Of a stretch of 64,000 nt of DNA, positions 3,166 through 63,172 are shown in pieces. The translations under genes and the position numbers were made by a program. The stretch is from Morchella semilibera (Eukaryota > Ascomycota > Pezizomycetes > Pezizales > Morchellaceae), in assembly GCA_009192285.1 (NCBI GenBank), contig WBVU01000021.1, positions 402,995 to 466,994 on the forward strand, read 5' to 3'. Positions within the stretch are counted from its first letter, which is position 1. Every line of letters starts with the position of its first letter. The notes under the pieces are model-generated. The model was not told the origin of the DNA. It saw nothing but the letters and a program-made list of their open reading frames with translations, and did not search any database.

Positions 3166-3540
3166 AATTGTTATATTTCTTATGGTTTTCTTTTGGGTTA
3201 TGAAAAATTAGTTATTAGGGCACGGGAATAAAAACTCTTTATAAAAACTATACTGCAAGAAAGCAATGGCCAATGCCAGAAACCAAGACTCGAGTCTAGA
3301 AGTTCGGAAATCAGAGGGGCCACACAGATAGCGGACAGTAGACGCACTGCGCACTGTTGACTTGCCATAACCCTGTGGAGAGACTGCCGATGCAAAGTAA
3401 GAACTCGTGATTAGGGCAAGGTATTCTTTGGGCATGACGTGTCAGAGCTACCCCGCACTTAGCTATATAAGAGACCTCACCCGCCGCAAGGAGAAGAATG
3501 TCAACCATCCTTCGTTATTTCTACTACAACCTATATTACA
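3166..3540 (+). promoter_or_regulatory. gag-pol spacer with TATA-like motif
   Basis: The 375-bp gap between the gag and pol frames has no long frame. It carries a clean TATATAAG at 3464-3471, about 77 bp before the pol ATG, followed by a pyrimidine-rich stretch. This is what a fungal core promoter looks like, but no function is shown; it may equally be a chance motif in an untranslated spacer. Confidence 0.3.
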
Positions 3541-6500
3541 ATGACTACCATCGCCCGAGAAACCCGCCTCGAGATAGAGATCTCTTGGCTCAATCCTAAA
3601 ACCAACAAACACTTCACCCACACTGTCCAAGCCTTGCTAGACAGCGGCACCGAGACATGGATCATGTCTTGGAACTGTGTTAAACAGGCCGACATTCCAG
3701 TTCAGACTCGCACCACAACCCTCCTCATTAAACAAGCTGATGGCTCACGTATGCCACACTCCGGTACTCATATTACCCAACCCCTCACACTCCGCATTGG
3801 TAACCACCTCGACAGGCTAGTCACCTGTGAAATAGGTACCTTTGCTGGGGAAGATCTCGTCATACCACATCGATGGCTCGAAGAGCATCAACCTACGATA
3901 CATTGGGGCCAGAATAAGGCTACCTTCAATAGTATCAAATGCCAGATTAAGGGTTGCATGATGACAGAAGGAGACATGTACGAAGAAGGTTGGCAAGAAA
4001 AGGTCGTTAGACTTCTACGACACATGCCTGAACCAGACATGCCCCTTGAGTCACACCCTTTCTGGGCAAGAAACACGGGAAGCGAGACCCTCGCTAGTGC
4101 TATCCCGGAAGAGTTCCAAGACTATGCAGATGTGTTCTCCCCTGAAGGAGCAGGACGCCTGCCGGAACATAGTGAGTGGGATCATACAATTCCTCTCTTG
4201 GACGGAAGCCAACCTCCGTGGGGTCCTATCTATGCATTGTCACCCCCGGAACAGAAAGCGTTGAGGGAATACCTGGACGAAATGTTAGCGGCAGGTAAGA
4301 TTGTCCCATCTTCCAGTCCAGCAGCGGCACCAATCCTCTTCGTCCCTAAACAAGACGGGTCACTACGGTTATGTGTCGACTACCGCGGGTTAAACTCCGT
4401 TACAGTCAAGAACCGGTACCCACTGCCTCTCATGACAGAGCTGGCAGACTCGACGAAGGGAGCTCTCTTCTTCACCAAGATCGATCTCAAGAACGGTTAC
4501 AACCTAGTAAGGATCACCGAGGGAGAAGAGTGGAAGACAGCTTTCCGGACCAAATACGGCCACTTCGAATATAGAGTAATGCCTTTCGGCTTGACAAATG
4601 CCCCGGCGACGTTCCAGGCAATGGTCAATACCATATTCAAGGACCTGTTAGATCAGGGCCTGGTGGTTTACTTGGATGATATCCTGATATATTCCAAGTC
4701 TAGAGAAGAGCATGTAGCTCTCGTGCGCAGGGTGCTGGAGCGGCTACGGCAAAACCACCTATTCGGCAACCTGAAAAAGACTGCTTGGTTCCAAACGGAG
4801 ATAGAATTCCTAGGATTCAAGCTATCAGGTAGCGGTACCCAGGTCTCACCCGAGAAGGTGAAGGCTATCACTGAGTGGTTGATACCCACAAAGGTGAAGG
4901 AGCTTCAATGCTTCCTGGGATTCGCCAACTTTCTAAGGCGGTTCATCTACGGGTATTCTGCGGTATGCAAGCCCATGACAGATCTCCTTAAGAAAAATGC
5001 TGTATGGAAGTGGGGCCGGGAGCAGCAGGATGCTTTTGAGGGGCTCAAGAAGCTATTTACCACCGCTCCTATCCTCCGACACTACGACGAACATCGCATG
5101 GCTGTCCTTGAAACAGATGCCAGCGACTGGGCAGAGGCTGCGGTCTTGTCACAGGTGTTCGAAGATGGCAAGTTACATCCGGTGGCTTACCACTCTCGCA
5201 AGTTCAACGAGGCCGAGGTCAACTATGAGATCTATGATAAAGAGATGCTCGCAATAGTTTCCGCCCTCCTGACTTGGAGACATTGGCTGGAAGGTACGGA
5301 CATACCTATCCAGATCTATTCTGATCACCAAAACCTTCAGTACTTCACCACGACCAAGAAGCTGTCAAGAAGACAGGCCCGTTGGGCAGAAAAGATAGCA
5401 CCTTTTCACTTCAAGATCCACTTCCGACCAGGCGACAAAAACGGGAAACCTGACGCATTGACCAGGCGCCCGGAGTACGCCATGGAAGGGGGAGTAGTTC
5501 GAGAGCAGCCAGTAAAAATGCTCCTCTCACCTGAACACTTCGCGGAAAGAAACCTCCTTCCCGGACATTTTGCCAGGAGGACACAAGCGGGAATAGAACC
5601 TCGTAAAGAAATCCTCTGCAATCCCTCATCGGAAGTGCGTTTAGTGGATCAGTGGGTACACATACCAGGAGTGGGAATGCCTGCGGCTCTGCAGAACTGG
5701 TATGAAGAAGAGGGTCGATGGACTCGTAGGATAGTTCCGGATGAACTCCCTGACAACGAAGATCCCGAGGACCTGTGGACCCGGCAGACTATCTTGCGGG
5801 AAGCTGCAACAGAGTGGGATCCCGATCAGAATACAGCGACTCATGAGGGACGCTGGGTAGTGCCTGGGCATGCAGTCAAGCAGGTCATAGAAGACCATCA
5901 CGACCGACCCACGGCAGGGCATCTAGGCAGAGATAAAACCTTGGAATTGATTGACAGGAACTACTGGTGGCCAGGAATGACCACGGATGTAGCCAAATAT
6001 GTCAGCACGTGCGATGTATGCCAAAGAGCCAAACAGCGACGACGACATATGTCTCTTCCACAGCCCCTAGAGTTAGCCACGACCCCTTGGTGCGACATCT
6101 CCATGGATTTTGTAGTGGAAATGCCCAAGGAGCGGTCAAGTTTCCGGAACGTCATGGTTGTAGTGGACCGCTTCAGTAAAATGGCGCACTTCATCCCAAT
6201 GACAGGAATCAACGCGGAGCAAACCGCACAAGCCTTCGTCAAAGACATCTGGCGCTTTCACGGACTCCCGCGATCAATAGTATCGGACCGAGGAACACAG
6301 TTCGTGTCAGCTTTCTGGACCGCGATCACAGAACGACTAGGGATTCGTAGAAGACTCTCGACCTCGTTCCATCCGCAGACAGATGGTCAGACGGAAAGGA
6401 CCAACCAGCATATGGAGTCCTACCTACGAGCGTTTACGGCCGGCACAGGTAAGAAGTGGAGAGACCTACTTCCTATCTGCGAGTACGCCTACAACAACGC

Positions 6501-7089
6501 CAAACACTCCTCTACCGGGCAGTCACCATTCTACTGCAATTATGGGTTTCACCCACGCTCAGACTGGCCTACGGAGGTGGAGATTGCGCAGCTGGACGCC
6601 GAAGGGAACAACCACCTGGACGAAATTCTCGCCGCCCATGAACTGGCTCGAGTGACCTTGCAGCAGACGTACGATAAAATGGCGTCACGACCGGGTCCCG
6701 CAGCACAGCAGTTCGAACCAGGGCAGAAGGTCCTGCTAGACACAAGGAACCTCGGAGGATATAACAAGTGGTCAGATAAGTTCACCGGACCCTTCGAAGT
6801 ACTAGCCAAGATCGGCAACCGAGCGTACCGGCTAGACCTACCAGCGGACTGGAAGGTTCACAACGTGTTCCATGAGATGCTCCTGAGGCCCTATCGGGAA
6901 GATGCGGACCCCAACAGGAAGCAGAACCCGCGCAAACGGCTGGCAACCCCAGAGCCCCAAGAGGCGCTGGCTGACGAGAATGCCAAACCAGCTATAAGCA
7001 ACCGTCCTCGCACTCGGAGTCAAGTGACAGTAGCCCCGGAGTCCGGAGCACGGCAGACTAAGAGGCAGCGACGGTTGACAGAGCAATAA
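3541..7089 (+). CDS. LTR-element Pol polyprotein (PR-RT-RH-IN), 1182 aa
   Basis: This is the enzymatic polyprotein of the Ty3/gypsy element. The order of parts is: aspartic protease near residues 30-40 (A-L-L-D-S-G-T); reverse transcriptase at about 240-420, with the Y-L-D-D box; RNase H at about 510-640 (E-T-D-A-S); the integrase zinc domain at about 790-840, with the H-H-C-C pattern; the integrase DDE core at about 855-1010; and an integrase C-terminal region near 1080-1110 ending in V-F-H-E-M-L-L-R-P-Y. The basic tail has no recognisable chromodomain. The proteins are made for copying the element RNA into DNA and inserting it. The frame is open from end to end. Confidence 0.95.
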   Translation: MTTIARETRLEIEISWLNPKTNKHFTHTVQALLDSGTETWIMSWNCVKQADIPVQTRTTTLLIKQADGSRMPHSGTHITQPLTLRIGNHLDRLVTCEIGTFAGEDLVIPHRWLEEHQPTIHWGQNKATFNSIKCQIKGCMMTEGDMYEEGWQEKVVRLLRHMPEPDMPLESHPFWARNTGSETLASAIPEEFQDYADVFSPEGAGRLPEHSEWDHTIPLLDGSQPPWGPIYALSPPEQKALREYLDEMLAAGKIVPSSSPAAAPILFVPKQDGSLRLCVDYRGLNSVTVKNRYPLPLMTELADSTKGALFFTKIDLKNGYNLVRITEGEEWKTAFRTKYGHFEYRVMPFGLTNAPATFQAMVNTIFKDLLDQGLVVYLDDILIYSKSREEHVALVRRVLERLRQNHLFGNLKKTAWFQTEIEFLGFKLSGSGTQVSPEKVKAITEWLIPTKVKELQCFLGFANFLRRFIYGYSAVCKPMTDLLKKNAVWKWGREQQDAFEGLKKLFTTAPILRHYDEHRMAVLETDASDWAEAAVLSQVFEDGKLHPVAYHSRKFNEAEVNYEIYDKEMLAIVSALLTWRHWLEGTDIPIQIYSDHQNLQYFTTTKKLSRRQARWAEKIAPFHFKIHFRPGDKNGKPDALTRRPEYAMEGGVVREQPVKMLLSPEHFAERNLLPGHFARRTQAGIEPRKEILCNPSSEVRLVDQWVHIPGVGMPAALQNWYEEEGRWTRRIVPDELPDNEDPEDLWTRQTILREAATEWDPDQNTATHEGRWVVPGHAVKQVIEDHHDRPTAGHLGRDKTLELIDRNYWWPGMTTDVAKYVSTCDVCQRAKQRRRHMSLPQPLELATTPWCDISMDFVVEMPKERSSFRNVMVVVDRFSKMAHFIPMTGINAEQTAQAFVKDIWRFHGLPRSIVSDRGTQFVSAFWTAITERLGIRRRLSTSFHPQTDGQTERTNQHMESYLRAFTAGTGKKWRDLLPICEYAYNNAKHSSTGQSPFYCNYGFHPRSDWPTEVEIAQLDAEGNNHLDEILAAHELARVTLQQTYDKMASRPGPAAQQFEPGQKVLLDTRNLGGYNKWSDKFTGPFEVLAKIGNRAYRLDLPADWKVHNVFHEMLLRPYREDADPNRKQNPRKRLATPEPQEALADENAKPAISNRPRTRSQVTVAPESGARQTKRQRRLTEQ

Positions 7090-12033: not shown

Positions 12034-13659
12034 TTAGTTAGAAACCATAGGAATCTCCCCCTGATTATTTCTTATCTTAGTATCAGCACCCCATCCCACC
12101 AATAGCCTGACAATATCTGCCTGCTTGTCGCGCGCCGCGGCGTGCAATGCTGTGTCTCCGTTATAATCTACAGCGTCGATCGGAGCATCATGTTCCAGGA
12201 GGGAACAAATAATATGAGTATTCCCCATGGTAACTGCGGTGTGTAGAGCAGTTCTATAGGAGACCATAACGTCAGTTTTATAGCTCCATCCAACAAAGAG
12301 CTGCCTATGCGGATGAAACATAGCTTGGGTCAACAGACCTGCCTAAACTATCCTTCCTGTCTGTTCCTGCACCAAAGAGTAATAGAGTCGATACTATCTC
12401 TTCTCGCCCCAATTTCACAGCGCGCTCCAGAGGGTACTGTAATTGATTGTCTTGTCCATGCACATCAAACCCACGGCGAAGTAAGGTGTGCACTTCAGCT
12501 GTTTGCCCCCTGCTGATGGCATCATGAAGCACACATTCAGGAACCGGGTCGGTCAGAGGAGGAGGCCCTTGGGGTATGGGTGGAGGAGCGTCGGTAAGTG
12601 TACGACCAGTAATATATCTAGTTCTTTTCTCACAACTATTGATAGAACCTGGGATGTAATCGTCGACTTCTCGGAGGGATGTGGAGGTAATATTCTGGGG
12701 AGAGAGGTTGGGGTTTGGTTTCAATGGTTTACACCCAGCGACCGGCAGGCTGAACACTGAGTCGTTTGATTGGTGACTGAGAAGAGAGAATTTCTCCGTC
12801 TGGGCCCAATCACTGTCAGTTGATAGCCAATTAGTAGATTCCGGTGTGCTCTTATATGGACGGGAACCAAGTAACTGTGACTCGAACGACAAGTGGAAAG
12901 GTGACCTTTTTGATGATATCTGATTGTTTTTGCCTGTCGATGTGACGCCCCCTTTACAACTCGTTGTGCTTGGATATCTCTGCGGTGTCATAGACCTAGC
13001 CTCTGGAAATGTGTAATTATCAGAGGCTATTAGGTAGGCATGGTCTTCTTCTAACGATGTCTCTCTATCGTGAGACCTGTCGGAAGTTCTATAGAATGAG
13101 CTATTCCTATTTTAATCTTAAAGGATGTGTGCTTAGATGCTTACCTCGTAAAAACATTAACCATCAAGGTTAGAGCCGAGTTTTGGTCCTTTAGCTGATC
13201 AAGAGTTCTGTGGTGTTCTCTTGACCTCAAGATCCACCATATACGCTCGCGTGGTTTCATTTTCCTTGGTCCTTTGGGGCCAGGCACCTCCGGAAGCACT
13301 GGTTCTGGGTTTTTGCAATTTTTCTCGGCTTGCGCAGCGTACGTGTCGTTTCGTTGTTTAGCTTGAATGATCATCGGAAGAAATCCCCGGTGCAGAGCCT
13401 CAAGTAAGGTTAAACTAACGGCAAGGGTACAGGATAGAAGTTCAATATCTGTAATGTTACGCAGCTCGGACCTGACTATCCACCTTTGAATTTGTTTGAG
13501 ACTCAAAGTAAAGCCGGTGATTACAATCTCGAGGTCTTTGGCGATATGAGGTGCGTCGATTGTGCTGGATATAAAATTGTGAAGTGCTGAGACTATGTGA
13601 TCTCCGAAAGCGAGCAGTGAGCTGATCATGCCAGGATCCACTACGTAGTCCATCTCCAT
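12034..13659 (-). CDS. Ankyrin-repeat protein with fungal PigL/Helo-like N-terminal domain (490 aa)
   Basis: The gene has three exons on the minus strand: 13659-13145, 13076-12339 and 12253-12034. Introns 13077-13144 (68 bp, GTAAGC..CAG) and 12254-12338 (85 bp, GTCTGT..TAG) restore one frame of exactly 491 codons. The second splice rebuilds a canonical ankyrin unit start, G-R-T-A-L-H, across the junction. Residues 10-170 resemble the N-terminal domain found before NACHT or ankyrin modules in fungal STAND-like proteins, ending with a basic W-I-L-R segment and the helix Q-N-S-A-L-T-L-M. The middle is Ser/Pro-rich and probably disordered. Residues about 353-490 are four ankyrin repeats, with GDTALHAAARDKQADIVRLL the clearest. 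There is no NACHT domain. Family knowledge suggests a protein-protein interaction or self-recognition role; the exact function is unknown. Confidence 0.82.
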
Positions 13660-13978
13660 AGTAGTTGAATTTGGATATGTTGAAATAGAAGGAAGCTCGG
13701 TGATATCTTTTCATGTTATTAGCGAGCGTTTCTAGGGAAAAAAATCAGGGGTAGCCGCCCACGTATAGGAGCGAAGAGTAGCGAGAACCTTTTTGCTCAC
13801 CACAAAGAGATCGATCAGTGGGACGTATTATATAGTGTCTCGAGCGCCCGAGCTAAAACGAACTTGGGGGGGAACAAACTGGCTGTAGTTGTGAGAATAT
13901 ATCGACGTCCCCGCGTGGTACTGCGGGTGTTGCTAAGGTCATGACAGTGCGGGCGCATCGCACCATAGCAGACCTAAC

Positions 13979-19470: not shown

Positions 19471-22400
19471 ATGAGTCAGTCCCAGCGATCACAAACACCC
19501 TTCTCTCGATATTGCGACTGTTCTATGTTCGATGGATTGCCTCACATGGTTACAACTCGCCGATCATGGCAGCGGCATACTGCAAAGAAACGTCAAGATT
19601 TGATGAGAGCACAGTTAGCAGATGCGTCTGGTCGAGATCGACCACATGCTCATGTAGCACCACGATCCTCATCACCACATAACCCCGATGAACTGCAGTT
19701 GCACTCCGATCAAATACAGCCGGCCCCTGGTTCTGAAGACTCGCAAAGTTCATTGGCCTCTAGCTCAAGCGCTTCCGAATATGGGCTGCCGATGGCCGAG
19801 GCGCCTCTAGTGCCAGTTGAGGAGCTAGAAGTGCGGAACTCCGACCCTCAGCATATCCGGCCTCAAACGCTACAAGATTCCGAATCACAGCTTGGCAGTT
19901 CCAGTTCTTCTGTCTTGTCGAATGAAGCACGTGCCCGTACACATAACTCTAGCGAGTATGATTTACCTATTGGGCCTGTTCTCTCTGACGAAAATATAGA
20001 ACTAGAAGGTATGGTTGTATTCGTATATATTGGATAAAAAAGCTGTGTATTGATTTAGTTTATAATCTACCGAATAGAAATACCGAGTTCCCCGCCAGCT
20101 ATCATCGATAACGACACGAACCCAAGCCCGCCTATCACCGATAATGACACGAACCCCGAGCGACAACATTCTATGTCCGAGAAACCATTTGATCAACAAA
20201 CAGGAGGGGATGTGTTGAATCAATCCAGCGATCAATCTCATTTTCCCAGTATTCGTTTGTCTGATGGCACTTCCGAGGACACCTCTTGCGATGATGATGA
20301 CGACGATGATGATGGTGATTCTACGGTATCTACTTCCTCTGAAGATGTTGGTCAAATGAATCAAGGTTTTATCAGTCTTGAAGATTCTTCAGATAATGAT
20401 TCGAGTGAAGATTTTGGCCAAATGAATTATCTCCATTCCGATGATGAAAACGATAAACAGTCTGATACACACGCGGATGACGATTCCATGCCTATTGAAT
20501 CCGACTTCGATTATGAAAATCCTATGGGCAAAACTCTCACAAGACGGGAACTGGTCTCTTTTGCTCTTAACGACATTGGTTTGAAGAATAGAATTTCAAG
20601 AACTGGTGTTATGGATACAAAAGCTTTGCTTGCTGTTGTTGCACCCCAGTACGCAAGACCTCTGGATCATCGAACAGCGAGGAAAAGAATAGCTTTGAGG
20701 ACTGGGGTTAAGGAGATATTATACGATTGTTGTCCGCATAGTCATATGTCATATGCTATGTATCCCGAGCTTGAGAGATGCCTAGAGTGTGATCATCCCC
20801 GATGGAAGGAAAACAGTGTTCCCTATGCAACTCATAGTTACATACCCATTACGCACCGCCTACGGTTACTATATTCCAACCGTAAATGGGCGACCTCTTT
20901 ATCTGCTTATCGATTCCATGCCGAGCAAGATCGACATCGTGGACTCCGATCTGATTTTTGGTCGAGTGATCTGTTCGTCGAGTTGAAGGCTAATAAAGGC
21001 CTATTCACTCAAGACACGGACATCGGTTTTATGTTGAGTACGGATGGTGTGAAAGTATTTAAAAGTAGGCGCAGCTTTAATATATGGCCAATTCTATTGG
21101 TATGTATGACGACCCCCCCCCCCGATTTTCCCCGCCCTCAAAATTATATCAGTTTCAATGCCAGCATATAATATATCCCTAAATTTTATAGATGATTTCC
21201 AATGTGGATGGGGGATGGGCGGCTCATGATAGAGGCTAATATATTGATAGATAAATTTAAATATTCCGCCTGCCGAGAGATTTAAAAAACGGAACATGCT
21301 TCTTGTCGGTTTTATACCTGGTCCAAACCATCCAAAAGACATCGATTCCTTCCTCTTCCCACTTATCCAAGAGCTATTACGACTGGAGACTGGGGTAACA
21401 ACATGGAACGCAGCGCGTAAGCGTGCCTTCATACTTCGAGCACATGTTTGTGTTATTGGCGCCGATATGCCTGGCAGAGAGAAGCTTATGAATTTTAAAG
21501 GGAATCGGGCAACGTCGTATTGCCCTTACTGCCATATACATGGTATCCACAATAGAAGTATTTATTGCCCATTAACAAAGCCTAATAATCCTCCGGGTAG
21601 TGTCAATGCTGAGGATTGGATTTCATATGAACCTGACCGGCTCCCTTTGCGCACTGACGAAGTTTGCCGCAATATTGCCAATCATGTCGTCGAAACCGGA
21701 GACGATAAGGCGGCTCAGAAATATGGTATTAGAGGGCCCTGCTGCTTGGCTGAGTTATCGTCTATTGATATACCGCGCAGTTTCCCACCCGATGGGATGC
21801 ATCTATGGTGGGAGAACATTATCCCAGACATTGTTAAGCACTGGCGGGGCAAGTTTTTTCTCTGACGCCACAAATGCACGGATTTTAGCTGCCGATGATA
21901 TCAACTCGGATGACGTTCAGCCACAAGCCCCCGCCCGCCGACAACCAATAAACACACAATCCGCGAAAAAGTTCGTGAAGACCAAAGATCCATACAATAT
22001 TCCGCCGGCGGAGTGGTACGCGATCGGGAGAGATATGACAGCAAGCGCGGCAACATTCCCAGCTAGTTTTGGGGATCCTCTACGAGACTTTGCGGAGCAC
22101 TGTCATCATTTGAAGGCAGCGGAGTGGAAGATCTTTACTATGCATCTTGCCCCTATCTATCTTAAAAGACGTCTCCCTGATCGAGATTATGAGGAATTCG
22201 TTAGTCTAGTTGACGCATTACAGTTGTGTGGCGACTTCGCAGTTACCGAAACTGAAATAGCCTCGATCAGGCAGCGATTGATTAGGTTTTACAAATACTA
22301 TGAAGATCGCTATTATGAGATGAAATGGGAGAGGCTATCTGCCTGTTTGCCTGTATTTCATCAGATTCTGCACGTTGCCAGTGGTATACTTGCCGCTGGG

Positions 22401-23264
22401 CCCATGTATGTCTATTGGCAATGGCCAATGGAGCGGGTATGTGGTATTATCGCAGCCTCTGCGAAGTCCAGGGTGGCCGCAAACAGGAATATGGCAATAT
22501 GCATGCTACTAAACGAGCAACGTAACCATCTACCATATGTCATGGAGGGATCAGGTCTTTCCCGTGAGGAATTCGAAGACTCCGATGGGAATGTTTTACT
22601 CCACCGGGCGTTCATCTCACGTCTCGGAAAATTAGCCGCGGGAAATGGATCTGACAGCATAGAAGCAGATGATAATAACCGCGCTAGTTCTAGCTCCCCC
22701 GCTACCAAAAGGGGCTTTGGTGCCCCCTCAAGAGAAGGAAATTTGAATACTTGGCATCGCAGAGCCCTGAGAATATATATCCTCCGATTGCGCGCACGAG
22801 AAAATCTCAATATTATATTACGTGATATTCCTGTGGCGGATATGCCAAAAGAATGTGTGCGCTGGTCGACGTATACAGCATCTCCGGACCGAAATAACAA
22901 TATTGACGAACCATTTACAATACAGTCATCAACAATGCGAAGAGGAAATTCCACCAGGGACTCCTCAATGGTCCGGTATGATCATATCGAAGAGGATGGT
23001 TCAGTTGTTAGTTGTTTTGGGAGGGTCTTGTTCTTTTTTACTGTTGAGTTCTCCGAGCCGGCACCCACCATAGAGCCAACCCGTACACTCGAGTTGGCAT
23101 ATATGCAGCCATTTACTGTTGAGCGCGACGGAAGATTGATATACCTTATTGCAGACAACATTGCGAGAATTGTAATTAGTGTAAATAACATTCGTGAGCT
23201 TGTTGGTCTTGTCGTCAATGGGCAGCGGAAATATTTAATACGCCGCTATTCATGTCTATTTTAA
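19471..23264 (+). CDS. Tnp2-family (CACTA) transposase, about 1190 aa, one apparent frameshift
   Basis: The exons are 19471-20008, 20078-21099 and 21251-23264. Introns are 20009-20077 (69 bp) and 21100-21250 (151 bp, GTATGT..GCTAAT..TAG). The N-terminus has a C-x-C then H zinc-like motif, Y-C-D-C-S-M-F-D-G-L-P-H, followed by an acidic Ser-rich linker. A second Cys cluster, D-C-C-P-H..C-L-E-C, precedes the Tnp2 core. The core shows L-S-T-D-G-V, W-P-I-L-L joined by the splice to I-N-L-N-I-P-P, then G-F-I-P-G-P-N-H-P-K-D, the Cys pair in Y-C-P-Y-C-H, and D-G-M-H-L-W-W-E-N. These match Transposase_21/Tnp2. At the T run near 21855 the frame shifts by one base; both sides are clearly homologous to the family, so this is a recent lesion or a sequencing error. 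The enzyme would cut and paste the element at its ends. Confidence 0.9.
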
Positions 23265-49663: not shown

Positions 49664-49745
49664 GCCCTGATGGTCTAGTGGTATGATTCCTGCTTTGGGT
49701 TCTCTTGAATGCAGGAGGTCTCCGGTTCAATCCCGGATTAGGGCC
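49664..49745 (+). tRNA. tRNA-Pro (anticodon UGG) with a 10-nt intron
   Basis: The acceptor arms GCCCTGA and TTAGGGC pair over 7 bp, and the discriminator is C as usual for proline. The D-arm and A box match the eukaryotic tRNA-Pro pattern, TGGTCTAGTGGTATGATTC. The anticodon stem is CCTGC with GCAGG; the loop reads TTTGGG, then a 10-nt intron after position 37, then T. The T-arm is TCCGG TTCAATC CCGGA. Mature length is 72 nt. No long T run follows immediately; a TCTTTTTG stretch starting about 10 bp downstream may serve as the Pol III terminator. Confidence 0.93.
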
Positions 49746-56442: not shown

Positions 56443-57023
56443 TCAGTCCCTAGCAATTCTGCTCTCCGGCAACTCCCCCTCCGCCCCGCTCTGCACTAAA
56501 GGCTCAGGACTCCGCGCCACCTTACACTCCCCGGTAAGCATCTCCACAACCCTGTTGCTCTTCACCCCATACTCAACCATCGCCCTCCACTGCGCCTCCA
56601 GCGCTTGCAGCCGCCACACCTCCCTGCCCGCGTCGAGCGGTACCGCCTCGAGCAGACACGCCCGCAGTCGCTGCTCAGCGTCTACCAGGTTAGATACCGC
56701 CCCACAGAGCCTGACAACGCGCTCTTTCCATCCATCGGGGTCCTGGTCGGTGGGGGCTGGGCGGGCTTTAGTAGGGGTTCTGCATACTGTGGGAGGATGG
56801 GATGGGTACCGCTTGCCTTGGCCTCGGCCTCGGCAGGAGGTGATTCCAACTCTTTCAGGATGGAACGCAGGACGTCGGCGAAGGGGTCTAGGATGGCCAG
56901 CTCCTGTTGGCAAACCGTGTTGACGAGCGCGGGGAGATCGTTAGCGTTGGTGGGAGATTTGGAAGCGCCATCACCGTGGGGTGGGGTAGCGTGGGGCGGG
57001 GGTGTGGTGCCTTGGGGGTTCAT
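56443..57023 (-). CDS. Tandem orphan family member 1 (168 aa, EQxLR/AxD family)
   Basis: Function unknown; one of four related neighbours. The exons are 57023-56817 and 56742-56443. The intron 56743-56816 (74 bp) has a GC donor in its best consensus, AAG|GCAAGC, a TACTAAA branch site and an ACCAG acceptor; the phases give exactly 169 codons. Residues 1-28 are Pro/Thr-rich. Residues 30-61 form a predicted helix with Q-Q-E-L-A-I-L and S-I-L-K-E-L-E. Exon 2 has a second helix with D-A-E-Q-R-L-R-A-C-L-L at about 90-100, and the protein ends I-A-R-D. No signal peptide or membrane segment is seen. It is the leftmost member, on the same strand as the others. A run of C on the coding strand precedes its ATG. 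Confidence 0.72.
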
Positions 57024-57807
57024 GGGTGCTGGGGGGGGGGGGGGTTGGGTTGAAGTTTCTTGTATTGTGTGAGGTAAAGAGACAATTTTAATTCAGAGGA
57101 GTAATCGAGTGGAGGAGCCCTGTCTCTCATTCTCCGTTCTTTCTTTCGCCTCCTTTTATCCTCATAAGTTACACGTTACCTCTTGGCACAACCCGTAGCA
57201 CAAGTGTTGAGGGTGTGTATCACAAAAAAGTCGAAGATTGGGTTAGGGCTGGGATTAGGGTTAGTTAGTTGTAGCAAGAGACGGATCGGAACAAGACCGG
57301 GATCGGCAAGGGTGGCAGATCGCGGCCTGAACGGCCCGAGGCTGATGAGCCTACCCGCCGCTAGCAGTTTTGCCTGCAGGGATCTTTCTTTAGTGCTTGG
57401 AAATGAAATCGTGAATAGAAAAATACATCCCCGAATTTAAAAATATATATTAACGACTACTCCTTCCCTACTAACTATTCGACCATGTATCTTTCTGCAC
57501 TTATATCTACGTTTGGATACCGACTGTAAGCTCCCGTGGGGGAGGGGAGGAGCAACTAGAAATCTTCAATCATAAATACCAAACCACAATTAGCCGTTAA
57601 CCTATCGTGTGGGCTGTAACTATAGCCAACTTCTAGTCTCCACCGACCGCCAATGCGCCTATCGTATCTGACCAGTTCCGCACCCCTTCCTGTTTCTCAC
57701 ACTCGGAGGAGGCAGCAACACAGCAAAGATCAGGTCTCAGTAAACCATATATAATACATCTCGACCCGGAAAAAGAAGGCGAGATCAACAACGACATGTG
57801 CTTTAAC
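57024..57807. other. Intergenic region between family members 1 and 2
   Basis: A G run at about 57031-57042 sits just upstream of the member 1 start. A telomere-like GGGTTAGGGCTGGGATTAGGG lies at about 57240. No other gene. Confidence 0.5.
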
Positions 57808-58446
57808 CTAGTCCTTAGCAATACCTCCCTCCCCAACCTCGCCCTCCGCCTTATCTTGCACCTTCCCCGTGCCTCGGGACAAAAAAATGGTGCGCATGGG
57901 CTCCGACTCCTCGTTCAGCATTCTCGCGCTCCTGATCAGCTCTTCTTCAAACGCCGTCGACTCTCTCTCCTGCGCCTCCGCCGCCCGCTGCTGCCACACG
58001 CTGCCTTCCTGTGACAAATCTTGGAGTAGATAGGTGCGGAGGCTCTGCTCGTCGCGGACGAAGGTGGCCAATTGATTGAACAACCTGCTCATGTTCCTGT
58101 AGCGATCCACGTAGTGCATGTCATGCTCTGAGATGTGTCCGGTGGGCCCTGGGGTGTGTGTGTATTAGTGCTTTGCGTGTCTTCATAGACGTGGGGGAGG
58201 GGGGGAGGTCGGGTACCAACCTGGGGTGTCGGAGTAGCATTTACAGTGGGGTTTGATCTCCTTCAGACAGGCCCGCATGGCTTCGGTGGCTGTGCCGAGA
58301 ATTTGGACCTCCCGCTTGTTGAGCTCGTCAAGGGCCGCGAGGGGGTCTTTGGAACTGGGTTCGGAGAGGTCTTCGTCCTGGGACGCATCGGCGTCCGGCG
58401 GGGGGCTGGCGCCGGTGGTAACGGTGAAGGTCTTGTAGGCGCTCAT
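57808..58446 (-). CDS. Tandem orphan family member 2 (188 aa, EQxLR/AxD family)
   Basis: The exons are 58446-58221 and 58148-57808. The intron 58149-58220 (72 bp) has a GTTGGT donor and a CCCAG acceptor; the join gives exactly 189 codons. The acidic Pro/Asp N-terminus leads into a helix at about 35-65 (L-N-K-R-E-V-Q-I-L..M-R-A-C-L-K-E-I-K). After a His/Asp linker, exon 2 begins a long helix with V-R-D-E-Q-S-L-R-T-Y-L-L at about 106-117, then Gln/Glu-rich helical sequence, and ends G-G-I-A-K-D. The two helices and the A-K-D ending match members 1 and 3 at the same places relative to the intron. No known domain is recognised. Confidence 0.78.
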
Positions 58447-59186
58447 AGGTGATGGGTGGGGGAATTGCGGAAAGCGCGGGGTAAGTTAGGTTAGGTTATT
58501 TAAGAGCCGCAGGGTTAGGGTTTGCTTTTGAGCATCGGCCTCAGTTAGGATGCATTTACGATACATACTCTTTCCCTAATCCTGAGCGCTATAAACCCAT
58601 GGAAAGTAACTCGCCAAATAACAGGTCCATGTCCATATTCTATTAAATATGTGCTTTAGCTGCACAGTCAACCTTTTCTTTTCAAGATGGGTAAATAAGT
58701 TGACCCGTATAAATCTCTGACGTTGACGATGATAACCATGTGAGTATCACTACCACTTAGGTCACCGGGGGAGCTGAGCGGTTTCCGGATATCCTGGATG
58801 CCCCCTGAGTCATGTGGGCAAGCCTTACTTTGTGTTGCTCGATAATCCTACGGTACTGTGAACCCTCACGCTGGCACTAGTTGTGGGAAATGAAGACCCC
58901 AAAATTGAGGAAGCCCTAAATATTATTGTTTACAACTCGCTTGTCATAATCTAGTATTACCAACTACTAGCTCTAGAACCTGAAAAACACCCGAGTCCTA
59001 CGAGAAATATCTCTCTTCATTCCGAGCTTACACAATCCGGACATCGCTAAATACTACTTCATTGTTTACGCAGTCGGGCAGGAAAGTTGCATAAATTTGC
59101 AGCTATTATCCTATTTATTTATAACCGATACAAGGAAATATTTTCATAATGTACAGCACAGAAACATACCAGATCGCACCAAACAC
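58447..59186. other. Intergenic region between family members 2 and 3
   Basis: A telomere-like AGGGTTAGGGTTTGC lies near 58510, upstream of member 2. No other gene. Confidence 0.5.
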
Positions 59187-60035
59187 TCAGTCCTTAGCCA
59201 TATCAATGTCTGGCTCCTCATCACCGGGCTCTTCCGGTACTGGCCCATCAGGCGCCTCCCCCGAAAAAATGCCAGCATCAGATGGCTGCCAACTCAACGC
59301 ATCGGATACGCTCTGCTCCTTCAACAGAAACGCCGTCACCATCTTGCGGTGCTCCACCATCGCCTGCATCCGTAGGTCCCCAGGCCCGTCGAGTATCGAC
59401 GAGAGCAGAATGCCGCGGAGGCTCTGCTCGGCCTGAAGGAGCCCACGGACCTCGATACATAGTTCGCTGAGCTTCTTGGAGGTCTCTAGGAAATCATTGC
59501 CCTGCGCTGAGTCGTGGCCTGGCGTGAAAATGGGAGTTAGCTTTCACCGGTGCAAGGGGGAAGGGTAGAGTGGAGTGGCACCTTGGAGCCCGGTGGACTG
59601 GCGGCAGGACTGTTGCTTGATGTCCTTGGTGAGCATCTGCATGGCGAATGCTAGCTTGTTGAGGAGGTCGATCTCGCGTTGGCTGACATCAGTCATCCAT
59701 GAATGGATAGAACTGCCGTGGAAGGCAGGGCTTGTGATGGAGACACCTCGGGCACTGGTAGGGGCTTCGGGGGCTTTTGTGGGGAGGCTAGGGTCTTTAG
59801 TAGGGATGTTAGGGGTGTCGGTGGGGACGTCGGGGGTGCTGGTGGGGACTTCGGGGGCTTTGGTGGAGACGCCAGAAGCTTTGGTGGGGATGTCGGTGGT
59901 GCTGGTGGGGACTTTGGCGGCGTTGGTGGGGGTGCCTGTGGGGACGTAGCGGCCATCGGCATACATGGCGTATACTGTACCCACGACGACAGACGCAACA
60001 TCGATAAGGGTACCGATCCTCCCGAAGGGGTCCAT
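59187..60035 (-). CDS. Tandem orphan family member 3 (261 aa) with heptad Thr/Pro repeats
   Basis: The exons are 60035-59582 and 59518-59187. The intron 59519-59581 (63 bp) has a GTGCCA donor, a GCTAACTCC branch site and a GCCAG acceptor; the total is exactly 262 codons. The start chosen is the ATG giving M-D-P-F-G-R-I-G; an upstream in-frame ATG exists but its extension is only low-complexity Pro/His. Residues 10-25 are hydrophobic and could be a signal anchor. Residues 31-97 are about eight heptads of the type V-P-T-x-x-P-x, encoded by a 21-bp tandem repeat. The family helix follows at 117-140 (S-Q-R-E-I-D-L-L..L-T-K-D-I-K), then in exon 2 Q-A-E-Q-S-L-R-G-I-L-L at 180-190 and the ending D-M-A-K-D. 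Confidence 0.75.
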
Positions 60036-60153
60036 TGGGGCCGAAGGGGGGTGGGTGGGTGGGTGGAAGGGGGGGTGGGGTTGTTGTGGGAGCTGATGAG
60101 TGAGGTCAACGCGGAGGATGACTAAGCAAGGCAACCTGTGTAAGTCAACTTTT

Positions 60154-60713
60154 GGGCAACGACGAGCCTGGGACAACGACGAAAACGCAGATTTCAGTCA
60201 ACTGGTTGCGGACACCTATATCCGGAGTAGGTACGACATTGGTTTTTTTTTTGCTATCACCTTCCTAATCAAGTAATAACTTGGCACCTTTGTTGCTCTT
60301 TTATGCCAAGACCTATCAATGATATTGAGCGGTAGTCCAATAATTGCCTAATCGGGTATTAAAATACCCAACGCTCTAGAACTATTGCCTAAATGGGCAA
60401 CTTTGGGGCGACATTCATTTGGTCTCTTACCAAAAACCCAACTTTTGGAAATTCAATAACTCCACAACTATAAGTGATAAAATTAATTGGACTCTGTCAT
60501 GATGTAGAGCGGAGGCTAAAGCATCATTTAACAGAGAGAAAATGATTGTAGGTATTGTGGCTGGAAAGCCATTACTCTCCAAATATTGGGGTCAAATGTC
60601 CTCCGGTTACAGGTGTCCTCAACCATAAGTGGTTATATTAGCTTGAGCGCCACTGTCTTGACTGACAAACACCCCTGTTCGTCGTTCGACTAGTTTCGTC
60701 ATTGCCCCCGGTT
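60154..60713. repeat. Inverted repeat with GACAACGACGAAAAC arms, copy 2
   Basis: GGGCAACGACGAG and GGGACAACGACGAAAACGC at the left face CGTCGTTCGACTAGTTTCGTC and ATTGCCCCC at the right. The arms match those of the inverted repeat at 13979-14098, so the two are one dispersed family. It lies just upstream of family member 3. Confidence 0.55.
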
Positions 60714-60718
60714 CGACT

Positions 60719-60824
60719 GTACTTGTGCAGCCGAATTCTAACTAAATCACGCGGTGCTGGTTGGCAGGCTTCTTGTGCTACTCACAGGTCATGTGATTCA
60801 GTTAAAACTCGGCCGCGCAAGTAC
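60719..60824. repeat. 106-bp hairpin
   Basis: The left arm GTACTTGTGCAGCCGAATTC and following TAACTAAATCAC face GTGATTCAGTTA and AAACTCGGCCGCGCAAGTAC. The arms are about 32 bp with few mismatches. Confidence 0.7.
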
Positions 60825-61029
60825 GAGGTGACGGAAAGTACATGAACTCGATATATATACCACAACTCGATTTACCACTCACAATCTCAACTACATGTGA
60901 CTCTAATGAAGCAACAATGGGGTAATCAAAGTCTGTTGGGGTGGGTGGATGAGGTTACGGGTGGGGTCTTTAGTAACTTAGATATTTGGCCAATAAGAAA
61001 AGTCATCTGGATTGTATTTCTGAGTACGC

Positions 61030-61663
61030 CTCTCTACCACCACAATTAATGCATCATTTGATGCATCAAATGCAACGAAGGATATTAATGCATTACAGCA
61101 ACGAATTCAGACAACAACAAATTTACTGATACTTTAACTGTGAATAGTCAATGGCGTGTCTGAAGTGATTGAAGTCATATCAATTCATAGCATGGCGTAA
61201 TAGATTAGCTCTTCATTGTTCTATTGTAAGGTGACAAAAGTTCCCGTAATTTTGTAAAAGGGTGGGCCATGAACCAACTATAACTTGGCGACCACTCTAC
61301 CACCACAATTAATGCATCATTTCATGCATTTACTCATATAAAAAGGATCTGTGAATGCATCGAAGGATGCATTAAATGCAACGAAGGATATTAATGCATC
61401 ACAGCAACGAATTTACTGATGACACCAACACATTTACTGATACTTTAGCTGTGAATAGTCAATAGCATGCCTGAAAAGCTTGAAATTATATCAATTTATA
61501 GCAAGGCGTAATAGATTAGCTCTTCAGTAATCTAGTATAATGATTCAGGTTCAATTCTCCGACAGCTTTCTTTTTTTCCAGGAAATTCTCCATGTCCTAA
61601 TTAGACTGATACATTAGATAGGATTTTGATGCATATACTGATTCATTACTTGTGGTGGTAGAG
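61030..61663. repeat. MITE-like element with internal direct duplication
   Basis: CTCTACCACCACAATTAATG occurs at 61030 and again at 61295, and its complement closes the element at about 61645-61663 (TGTGGTGGTAGAG). The two left copies begin diverged direct repeats of about 190 and 245 bp that share GCAACGAAGGATATTAATGC and GTGAATAGTCAAT. One copy probably arose by local duplication or nested insertion. Confidence 0.6.
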
Positions 61664-62548
61664 CAGTACCTCGGGGGTTACATGTGGTACACGGGTGTGT
61701 CTTTGCTGCGCTTGTGTAGCGGGTAGAGGGTTGTGGTCGTGTCTTCTGGTTGGTCTGGCTGCTGCATGAGGTGGGGGGATGAAACGACTAGCTTGTCTGG
61801 GATGGACGCCTCTGGGGCATGCCGGACGTATGGCCCGAGAGGCTATGGAGGGTGGGTGTGTAAACCTCGGCGTTTGCAGCCAACCAGTCAATGGAAATTG
61901 GGAGATCTCCCCATGATTGTACTAGCGCCTAGCCTAACGGTCTAATTCCCATACAAAAAAGATTCCTCTGAGGTTTACACACCCACCCTCTATGCCTTCT
62001 CGTGCCATACTTATGAAGTGCAATATCGGGATGGGGCTCGTATTGCACATACCCAACACCAGTGCGGCGCCGCCCACTGCGCCGTGCAGCTTTATTATTG
62101 GGATTAGCAAAGCGACACTCGCGTCAGTAGGAGTGGTAGTTAGCCCCATGGGCGGGTGGTATAGTATAATGTGGCTTTTTCGCCCCACTCGCCGGCTGGC
62201 AGGTCGGCGCATACATCTAGCGCCCCACACCCTAGCTTGCGGCTAGCGTTTGGCGTGTCGTTCCTAACCGGTCATGGCCAGCTCTACGGGCCACGGGCTG
62301 TCCTGGTGATTGTGGGGTTGGCTACACCAAGAGTCGCTCTCTACATTGGCATCATGAACTCTCACTCGTGCTTCACGGACGGGCTGTGTCGTAATTTTAT
62401 TTATGCTTCTTATATGCGTGCAACCCGCACTGCCTCATCGTGGTCTTAGTGCGGGCTGCACAAATAAAATGACAAAGGAGATGTAACCCTCCCCACAACG
62501 ACCGAGAAACCGCAGCGCCACACAAGTTCTCCCAACCGCCCCCAACCC

Positions 62549-63172
62549 TCAATCCCTCGCCACTCCGCCGTCCTCCCGCGGCCGCGGCGCCCCCATCTCA
62601 AGGTTCCACCTCACCGCCCCAAACCCCGGCACCCCCCGCAGCCTCAACCTGCTATCCCCCAGCGCACGGTTCAGCCGCTCCATCTCTCTACGGACGCCGT
62701 CCGTGATGGCGCGCACCAGCACCTCAAACTCCTGGTCCGTCCCCTCCGCGCCATGCTGCAGCAGCCGCCGAACCCGCCGCTGCTCCCGGATCAGGTCCAC
62801 GCTCTCGACGTAGCCGTGCAGCTGGAACTCGCGGCTCAGGTTTGTCTCCAGCTGGCGCTCGGCGCGCTCGAGGTCGGCGCTGGCGGGCTGGGTCACTGCG
62901 TTTGTTAGCCGCGGGCTTGGAGGGGGGACAGGGGGGGGGGGACGTTTTAGCTCTGAGAGGAGGTGGATCAGCTTTGTGCTGTCGCGGATTAGGGACTTGA
63001 CGGTTGAGGCTTGGAGGCGGAGGTGGGCGAGTTCGCGGTCGTGGAGGGTGGCGAGGCGGGTGGGCAAGGGGGGCGGGGGTGGTGGGGGGCTGGGGGTGTA
63101 CTTCCTGGGAGGGGGGGTGGGGGACGGCGGGGAGACGTGGTATTCGATGAGGTCGGGGTCGCTGGTGGACAT
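62549..63172 (-). CDS. Tandem orphan family member 4 (207 aa, EQxxR/AxD family)
   Basis: The frame is open from 63172 to 62549 without needing a splice. The N-terminus is Pro-rich with a run of seven Pro. The family helix is at about 40-64 (L-H-D-R-E-L-A-H-L..S-L-I-R-D). Residues 78-95 are a Pro-rich insert encoded by a C-rich stretch that carries a GGCTAACAAACG branch-like site and an ACCCAG acceptor. This is exactly where the other members have their intron, so an in-frame intron may be removed here; a donor at a GTCCCC would give 42 bp, but the C run makes this uncertain. Exon-2-like sequence follows, with I-R-E-Q-R-R-V-R-R-L-L at about 128-138, and the ending is G-G-V-A-R-D. No function is known. 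Confidence 0.7.
   Translation of the reverse strand: MSTSDPDLIEYHVSPPSPTPPPRKYTPSPPPPPPPLPTRLATLHDRELAHLRLQASTVKSLIRDSTKLIHLLSELKRPPPPVPPPSPRLTNAVTQPASADLERAERQLETNLSREFQLHGYVESVDLIREQRRVRRLLQHGAEGTDQEFEVLVRAITDGVRREMERLNRALGDSRLRLRGVPGFGAVRWNLEMGAPRPREDGGVARD

Follow-up and report, generated by a model that had tools for sequence, protein, structure and literature searches.

What kind of genes are the four small minus-strand genes, here called m1 to m4, that stand in a row near the end of a 64,000-nucleotide stretch of Morchella semilibera DNA (the window; C17:402,995-466,994 of contig C17, which has 568,217 bases)? A sequence-only reading of the window had described them as a tandem family with a shared plan and a common C-terminus, A-[KR]-D. 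Our analysis supports a real, apparently lineage-specific tandem family without a name, which is longer than first noted and runs past the window. Its function we infer from the layout of its proteins: a variable helical module, a spacer and a nearly invariant C-terminal peptide, the layout of an adaptor.

The four genes of the window

The gene models, computed from the sequence and numbered as in the window, are as follows.

56810..57023, minus strand: m1 exon 1 (Pro-rich N-terminus, helix 1), gene model
56757..56809, minus strand: m1 intron, 53 nucleotides, GT-AG, phase 1, predicted from sequence
56443..56756, minus strand: m1 exon 2 (helical hairpin, tail IARD), gene model and profile
58221..58446, minus strand: m2 exon 1, gene model
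58149..58220, minus strand: m2 intron, 72 nucleotides, GT-AG, phase 1, predicted from sequence
57808..58148, minus strand: m2 exon 2 (helical hairpin, tail IAKD), gene model, profile and AlphaFold hairpin
59582..60035, minus strand: m3 exon 1 (hydrophobic stretch near the N-terminus, Pro/Thr repeats, helix 1), gene model
59519..59581, minus strand: m3 intron, 63 nucleotides, GT-AG, phase 1, predicted from sequence
59187..59518, minus strand: m3 exon 2 (helical hairpin, tail MAKD), gene model and profile
62549..63172, minus strand: m4, single exon (Pro-rich N-terminus, helices, tail VARD), probable member, gene model

The encoded proteins have 175 (m1), 188 (m2), 261 (m3) and 207 (m4) amino acids, which with the stop makes 176, 189, 262 and 208 codons. 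The counts of 189 and 262 given earlier for m2 and m3 were reproduced, but the 169 given for m1 was not, and one 169-codon variant that was tried had no AG acceptor. The single homologous intron site that had been claimed was found in m1-m3, where the introns are all of phase 1 and lie 100, 97 and 100 nucleotides past the start of the helix-1 motif; m4 is one open frame without an intron. All four genes carry the described motifs and A-[KR]-D ends, except that the second helix of m4, EQRRVRRLL, does not fit the pattern E-Q-x-[LV]-R-x-x-L-L. Counted to the end of the stop codon, the second-helix GAGCAG lies at a distance of 234, 243, 243 and 237 nucleotides in m1 to m4, respectively. The GC content is 0.59-0.72 at the first, 0.44-0.51 at the second and 0.71-0.85 at the third codon position, against 0.48 for the region.

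Homology within the window was assessed by scoring each member against a profile of the other three, with 2000 shuffles made per gene and those that were scored counted. The held-out scores of m1, m2 and m3 were 58.8, 31.0 and 32.5 bits, which none of the shuffles reached (0/1752, 0/1792 and 0/1664, respectively). m1-m3 are thus one homologous family, and the old tandem duplication proposed for all four genes is well supported for these three. For m4 it is likely: held out, this gene scored 3.4 bits, weak by sequence, with 7 of 1335 scored shuffles equal or higher, and when m5-m7 (see below) were added to the training set 2 of 2970 shuffles scored as high. The divergence of the family is considerable, exon 2 of m2, m3 and m4 being 34, 28 and 20% identical to that of m1.

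In the whole genome (56,756,124 bases in 23 contigs) the consensus of m1-m3 retrieved m2 (E 2.3e-34), m1 (4.0e-26) and m3 (1.4e-9), with no further match up to E 10. Searches with single members gave only cluster genes below E 0.1, and weak matches elsewhere at E 0.117-3.36. Distant members may have been missed because these searches are insensitive; m3 does not retrieve m1 or m2.

The array beyond the window and its C-terminal tail

The array continues past the window on the same strand up to C17:498,738, which brings its length to about 39 kb. With a full-length profile of m1-m4 the top non-member was the exon 1 open reading frame of m5, 2.4 kb past the window edge (E 0.016), and that of m7 was also listed (E 3.9). 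m5-m7 were found by eye on the array strand from a short helix exon, a small intron and a second helix with E-[QR]-x-L; m6 and m7 were chosen by their helices and intron before their tails became visible.

C17:469702-468784, same strand as m1-m4: m5, ending in GGD
C17:494286-492972, same strand as m1-m4: m6, ending in AARD
C17:498639 or, in frame, 498738 (start) to 497275 (end), same strand as m1-m4: m7, ending in VARD
C17:496205-494478, same strand as m1-m4: m8, open reading frame ending in VARD, no clear start

The C-terminal part of m8 is common to m7 (E 3.3e-14); upstream of the m8 open reading frame neither a start nor helices 1 and 2 were seen. As in m1-m3, the introns of m5, m6 and m7 lie between the two helices. 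In m5-m8 a long coiled coil comes after the hairpin, where m1-m4 have a short linker.

What holds the array together is its tail. In the 265 kb to which the regional analyses refer (C17:303,000-568,217, window included), there are 22,719 stop-to-stop frames, and 12 of these have A[KR]D as their end. Among the 423 frames of at least 100 amino acids there are seven such ends, which are those of m1, m2, m3, m4, m6, m7 and m8, all on the cluster strand; from the internal frequency of the motif (32 in 67,859 positions) 0.20 would be expected (binomial P 2e-9). Since four of the seven tails had suggested the motif, the independent part of this count is 3/419, with m7 and m8 mutually related. Five reordered residue classes, taken as control, gave 0 or 1 end each among the 423 frames. 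In m1-m4, m6 and m7 the tail is written with varied codons (GCT, GCG or GCC; AGG, AAG, CGC or CGT; GAC or GAT), which points to selection on the protein.

Two well-known C-terminal signals were compared with the tail. The consensus of the peroxisomal targeting signal type 1 (PTS1) is [SAC]-[KRH]-[LM]-COOH; the array tail, likewise three residues at the C-terminus, agrees with it at the first two, but the last residue is D instead of L or M in all seven tails, which therefore do not match. The EEVD of Hsp70/Hsp90-type tails, which serve tetratricopeptide repeat clamps, is absent from the C-termini IARD, IAKD, MAKD, VARD and AARD.

The two-helix domains of m1-m7 (m8 left out), with limits set by hand, were also tested together. 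Shuffles scored as high as the real domain in 0/2693 cases for m1, 0/2942 for m2, 0/2905 for m3, 2/2970 for m4, 2/2978 for m5, 0/2987 for m6 and 1/2986 for m7, a result that is flattered because m5 and m6 are recent duplicates and because m5-m7 had been picked by eye for their helices. From tail, strand, order and gene plan one origin of the m1-m4 and m5-m8 groups appears probable, the sequence similarity across the groups being weak.

Relatives, structure and possible role

The earlier statement that no named family fits holds for the Pfam, NCBIfam, protein database and PDB searches that were run. In Pfam no family scored above cut-off with m1-m5, m7, m8 and the first 183 amino acids of m6, so that HET, NACHT or similar domains were unmatched; NCBIfam gave no match for m1-m4. 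We did not believe the Pfam matches below cut-off, which were Pec_lyase_N in m2 (0.026-0.07), DUF7858 in m4, DUF6480 in m1, DASH_Dad3 in m5 (0.38), DUF7801 in m6 (0.0085) and Gemini_mov in an m3 open reading frame. A protein database search up to E 10, in which shared 5-residue words were required, found nothing for either the alignment of the four genes (7997 candidates scored) or m2 (183 candidates); because this database includes Morchella sextelata proteins, it is unlikely to contain a close annotated relative. The PDB sequence search returned one match at E 0.045, and in the open-licence literature no description of this gene family was found.

AlphaFold, given exon 2 of m2 together with those of m1 and m3, placed helices at residues 7-46, 50-79 and 82-89 (mean predicted local distance difference test score, pLDDT, 73.5; predicted template modelling score 0.55). 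Ten-residue pLDDT means were 74-93 over residues 11-80 and below 50 in the tail. The second exon of m2 is thus predicted to form a hairpin with a disordered tail. For m4 alone four helices of low confidence were predicted (mean pLDDT 53.8). Foldseek with the m2 exon 2 model gave 73 matches up to E 10, none at 0.001 and the best at E 1.8 (best 50 of the 73). Among them were the hairpins of ESAT-6/CFP-10 (WXG100) and CHMP4B, which likewise consist of two long antiparallel helices; the structural match is not significant and no sequence relation was found.

We propose, with a probability of about 45%, that the array is a lineage-specific Morchella tandem family of helical adaptors, which combine a diversifying hairpin with a fixed C-terminal docking peptide. 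If expressed, the proteins would probably act inside the cell. Helix 1 from exon 1 and the helical hairpin from exon 2 would provide the contact surface and the fast-changing part; next would come a spacer of free length, linker or coiled coil; and the C-terminal peptide, mostly hydrophobic-A-[KR]-D-COOH and present in all but m5, would dock the members to one common partner. The adaptor is suggested by the layout, in which a spacer of free length separates a helical module that varies from a C-terminal peptide that stays fixed, and the common partner by the tail, which outlasts nearly all other sequence. An intracellular role is likelier than that of a secreted effector, which had been considered from the sequence alone and is not favoured, since among the seven start-bearing proteins only m3 has an N-terminal hydrophobic 17-mer (1.74 at residue 7; hydropathy, not a signal-peptide predictor). 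As to why the hairpin diversifies, the simplest reading is conflict or recognition.

Effector- or nonself-recognition-type gene clusters of fungi are lineage-specific, fast-evolving and tandem, and those that diverge fast usually come to notice because they carry a secretion signal or some known domain. The Morchella array resembles them in its tandem order, small genes, strong divergence, absence of relatives in the searches and an excess of amino acid changes in one recent pair. It differs in that nothing points to secretion, m3 being a possible exception, in that it has no HET, NACHT or other known domain, and in that it keeps its A-[KR]-D end throughout; here it is a C-terminal tripeptide, outlasting most of the sequence, that holds the cluster together. 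Recognition and development genes are poorly known in this genus. The tail makes the function of the family testable: if it is a docking code, the partner should be directly retrievable, which would give a handle on an orphan family.

Two vegetative-incompatibility candidates of Morchella importuna, mimpvic32 and mimpvic33, are likewise polymorphic recognition candidates from the same genus. As described in PMC8940278, one is CorA-like and has 8 introns, while the other is a protein of 1311-1324 amino acids with 2 introns, sizes and gene structures that do not fit the array genes; they are set apart by this description, not by sequence.

Several results weigh against the adaptor family as proposed, and in part they favour other explanations. 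The two groups are hard to join by sequence: a profile made from exon 2 of m1-m4 alone missed m5, m6 and m7 up to E 20; after training on m1-m3, 35/2694 shuffles matched m4, 327/2824 m5, 117/2839 m6 and 17/2885 m7; after training on m5-m7, 26/2557 matched m1, 113/2798 m2, 734/2911 m3 and 38/2907 m4. The intron phases differ between the groups as well (1, 1, 1, none, 0, 0 and 2 for m1 to m7), and the tail counts span 265 kb of 56.8 Mb. Weak cross-group scores, a missing exon-2 match and unlike phases are what speaks for m1-m4 and m5-m8 being unrelated neighbours, with the tail and plan in common by coincidence or through some local regulatory quirk. We regard this as improbable in view of seven A[KR]D ends among 423 frames, all in the cluster, of the common strand, of the intron between two helices in both groups and of the all-seven test, in which m4-m7 were equalled by at most two shuffles each. 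m5 also ends in GGD, and A-A-R-D codons resembling those of m6 come after it in another frame. That m5 has no in-frame tail and m8 no clear start would suit a transposon-rich region whose frames are in decay or not transcribed and do not act as working genes, as would the open reading frames of retroelements close to the array and at the end of the contig and a short inverted-repeat element beside m3. Intact frames with codon-position GC bias in m1-m4, m6 and m7, the lack of any Pfam match above cut-off and a tail kept with varied codons make this explanation very improbable.

The case for diversification comes from the pair m5/m6, in whose 105 N-terminal codons nonsynonymous substitutions (dN 0.524) exceed synonymous ones (dS 0.256) with dN/dS 2.04 (Fisher p 0.016), in line with the fast divergence noticed at the outset; this is a single pair with limits set by hand, and by exon the p values are 0.25 (exon 1) and 0.033 (exon 2), the former again counting against the proposal. 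A further such point is exon 2 of m1/m2, where the proportion of nonsynonymous differences (pN 0.432) lies below that of synonymous ones (pS 0.582; p 0.027); m1/m3 and m2/m3 showed no difference between pN and pS in exon 2. The C-terminal 96 codons of m7/m8 are conserved (pN 0.286, pS 0.62). Diversifying selection is thus indicated by the sequences of one pair outside the window, not for m1-m4. It is quite possible, if in our opinion somewhat doubtful, that the array encodes ordinary coiled-coil or structural proteins under weak constraint, a tandem family shaped by drift and slippage repeats, with the tail as a relic or a generic localisation or stability signal and with no recognition at all. 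In its favour are the roughly 20-residue repeats of m5 and m6, the constraint in m1/m2 and m7/m8 and the absence of any defence, HET or secretion feature from the Pfam scans; it has difficulty with dN above dS in m5/m6 and with a tail that in varied codons outlasts nearly all other identity. The same dN/dS excess suggests a role in conflict or recognition. A self-recognition role is possible; its full form, a morel conflict or self-recognition array in which the intact members would share one partner via the tail while the hairpin is positively selected to discriminate a rival or nonself ligand, we consider unlikely.

The introns of m5 and m6 (C17:469501-469549 and C17:494115-494163) are identical in 49 of 49 nucleotides, unlike the exons (69% identity in exon 1, 73% over the first 255 aligned bases of exon 2) and even unlike the synonymous sites (pS 0.217). 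Being more alike than these, the intron was rejected as a neutral yardstick; it is possibly constrained or converted. No other copy within 3 mismatches was found in the genome.

Upstream elements and mobile sequence

One upstream sequence recurs in the array; its place at m3 is as follows.

60117..60128, minus strand: TGCTTAGTCATC, 93 nucleotides upstream of the m3 start, suggestive only

TGCTTAGTCA occurs four times in the 265 kb, always in the cluster and on its strand (at m3, m5, m6 and near m8), and m7 carries the variant TTCTTAGTCA. The distance to the start is 93 nucleotides in m3, 102 in m5, 103 in m6 and 107 in m7, counted from the upstream ATG of the latter. The element was noticed after the fact. 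In a control that left out m6 as a recent duplicate and m8 for want of a start, the promoter 8-mer common to 3/6 was equalled in 57 of 3000 random sets, and the longer words, present in 2/6, in 1716 (9-mers) and 641 (10-mers) of 3000; as a shared promoter element TGCTTAGTCA is suggestive only. Across the genome TGCTTAGTCATC was counted 19 times and its reversed control twice; 16 of the 19 lie outside the array and could belong to further promoters or to a repeat. CCCTAAC is found within 400 nucleotides upstream of m1, m2 and m4 (3 of 8 genes; 9% of random windows).

A near-identical 25-mer upstream of m3 and m5, at first sight a sign of promoter homology, was rejected as family evidence, since it proved to be the terminal repeat of a short element that is scattered through the genome: when up to 3 mismatches are allowed, it matches 40 places and its reversed control 0, and several copies form inverted pairs about 370-400 nucleotides apart. 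Such an element with inverted ends of about 25 nucleotides lies directly upstream of m3 (window 60203-60625; C17:463197-463619), and a lone copy of one of its ends upstream of m5.

Other mobile sequence was seen in the region. At window 3463-7089 (plus strand) there is a long retroelement polyprotein open reading frame, whose searched part shares 86% identity with a protein of Morchella sextelata, and similar sequence seems present at the contig end. Two opposite-strand open reading frames with like starts (INLNI.PA.RFKKRNMLLVGF), at window 21251-21865 and C17:485408-487378, are apparently copies of one mobile element; the neighbours at window 20059-23264 had no Pfam match. Two adjoining open reading frames at window 12305-13710 (minus strand), one with weak ankyrin repeats below cut-off (Pfam E 2e-4), are perhaps parts of one NLR-like gene. 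The sole Rfam match at gathering score in the window is a tRNA gene at 49664-49745 (plus strand). Contigs C21 and C22 gave the same matches at near-equal coordinates, which would suit allelic or duplicated scaffolds.

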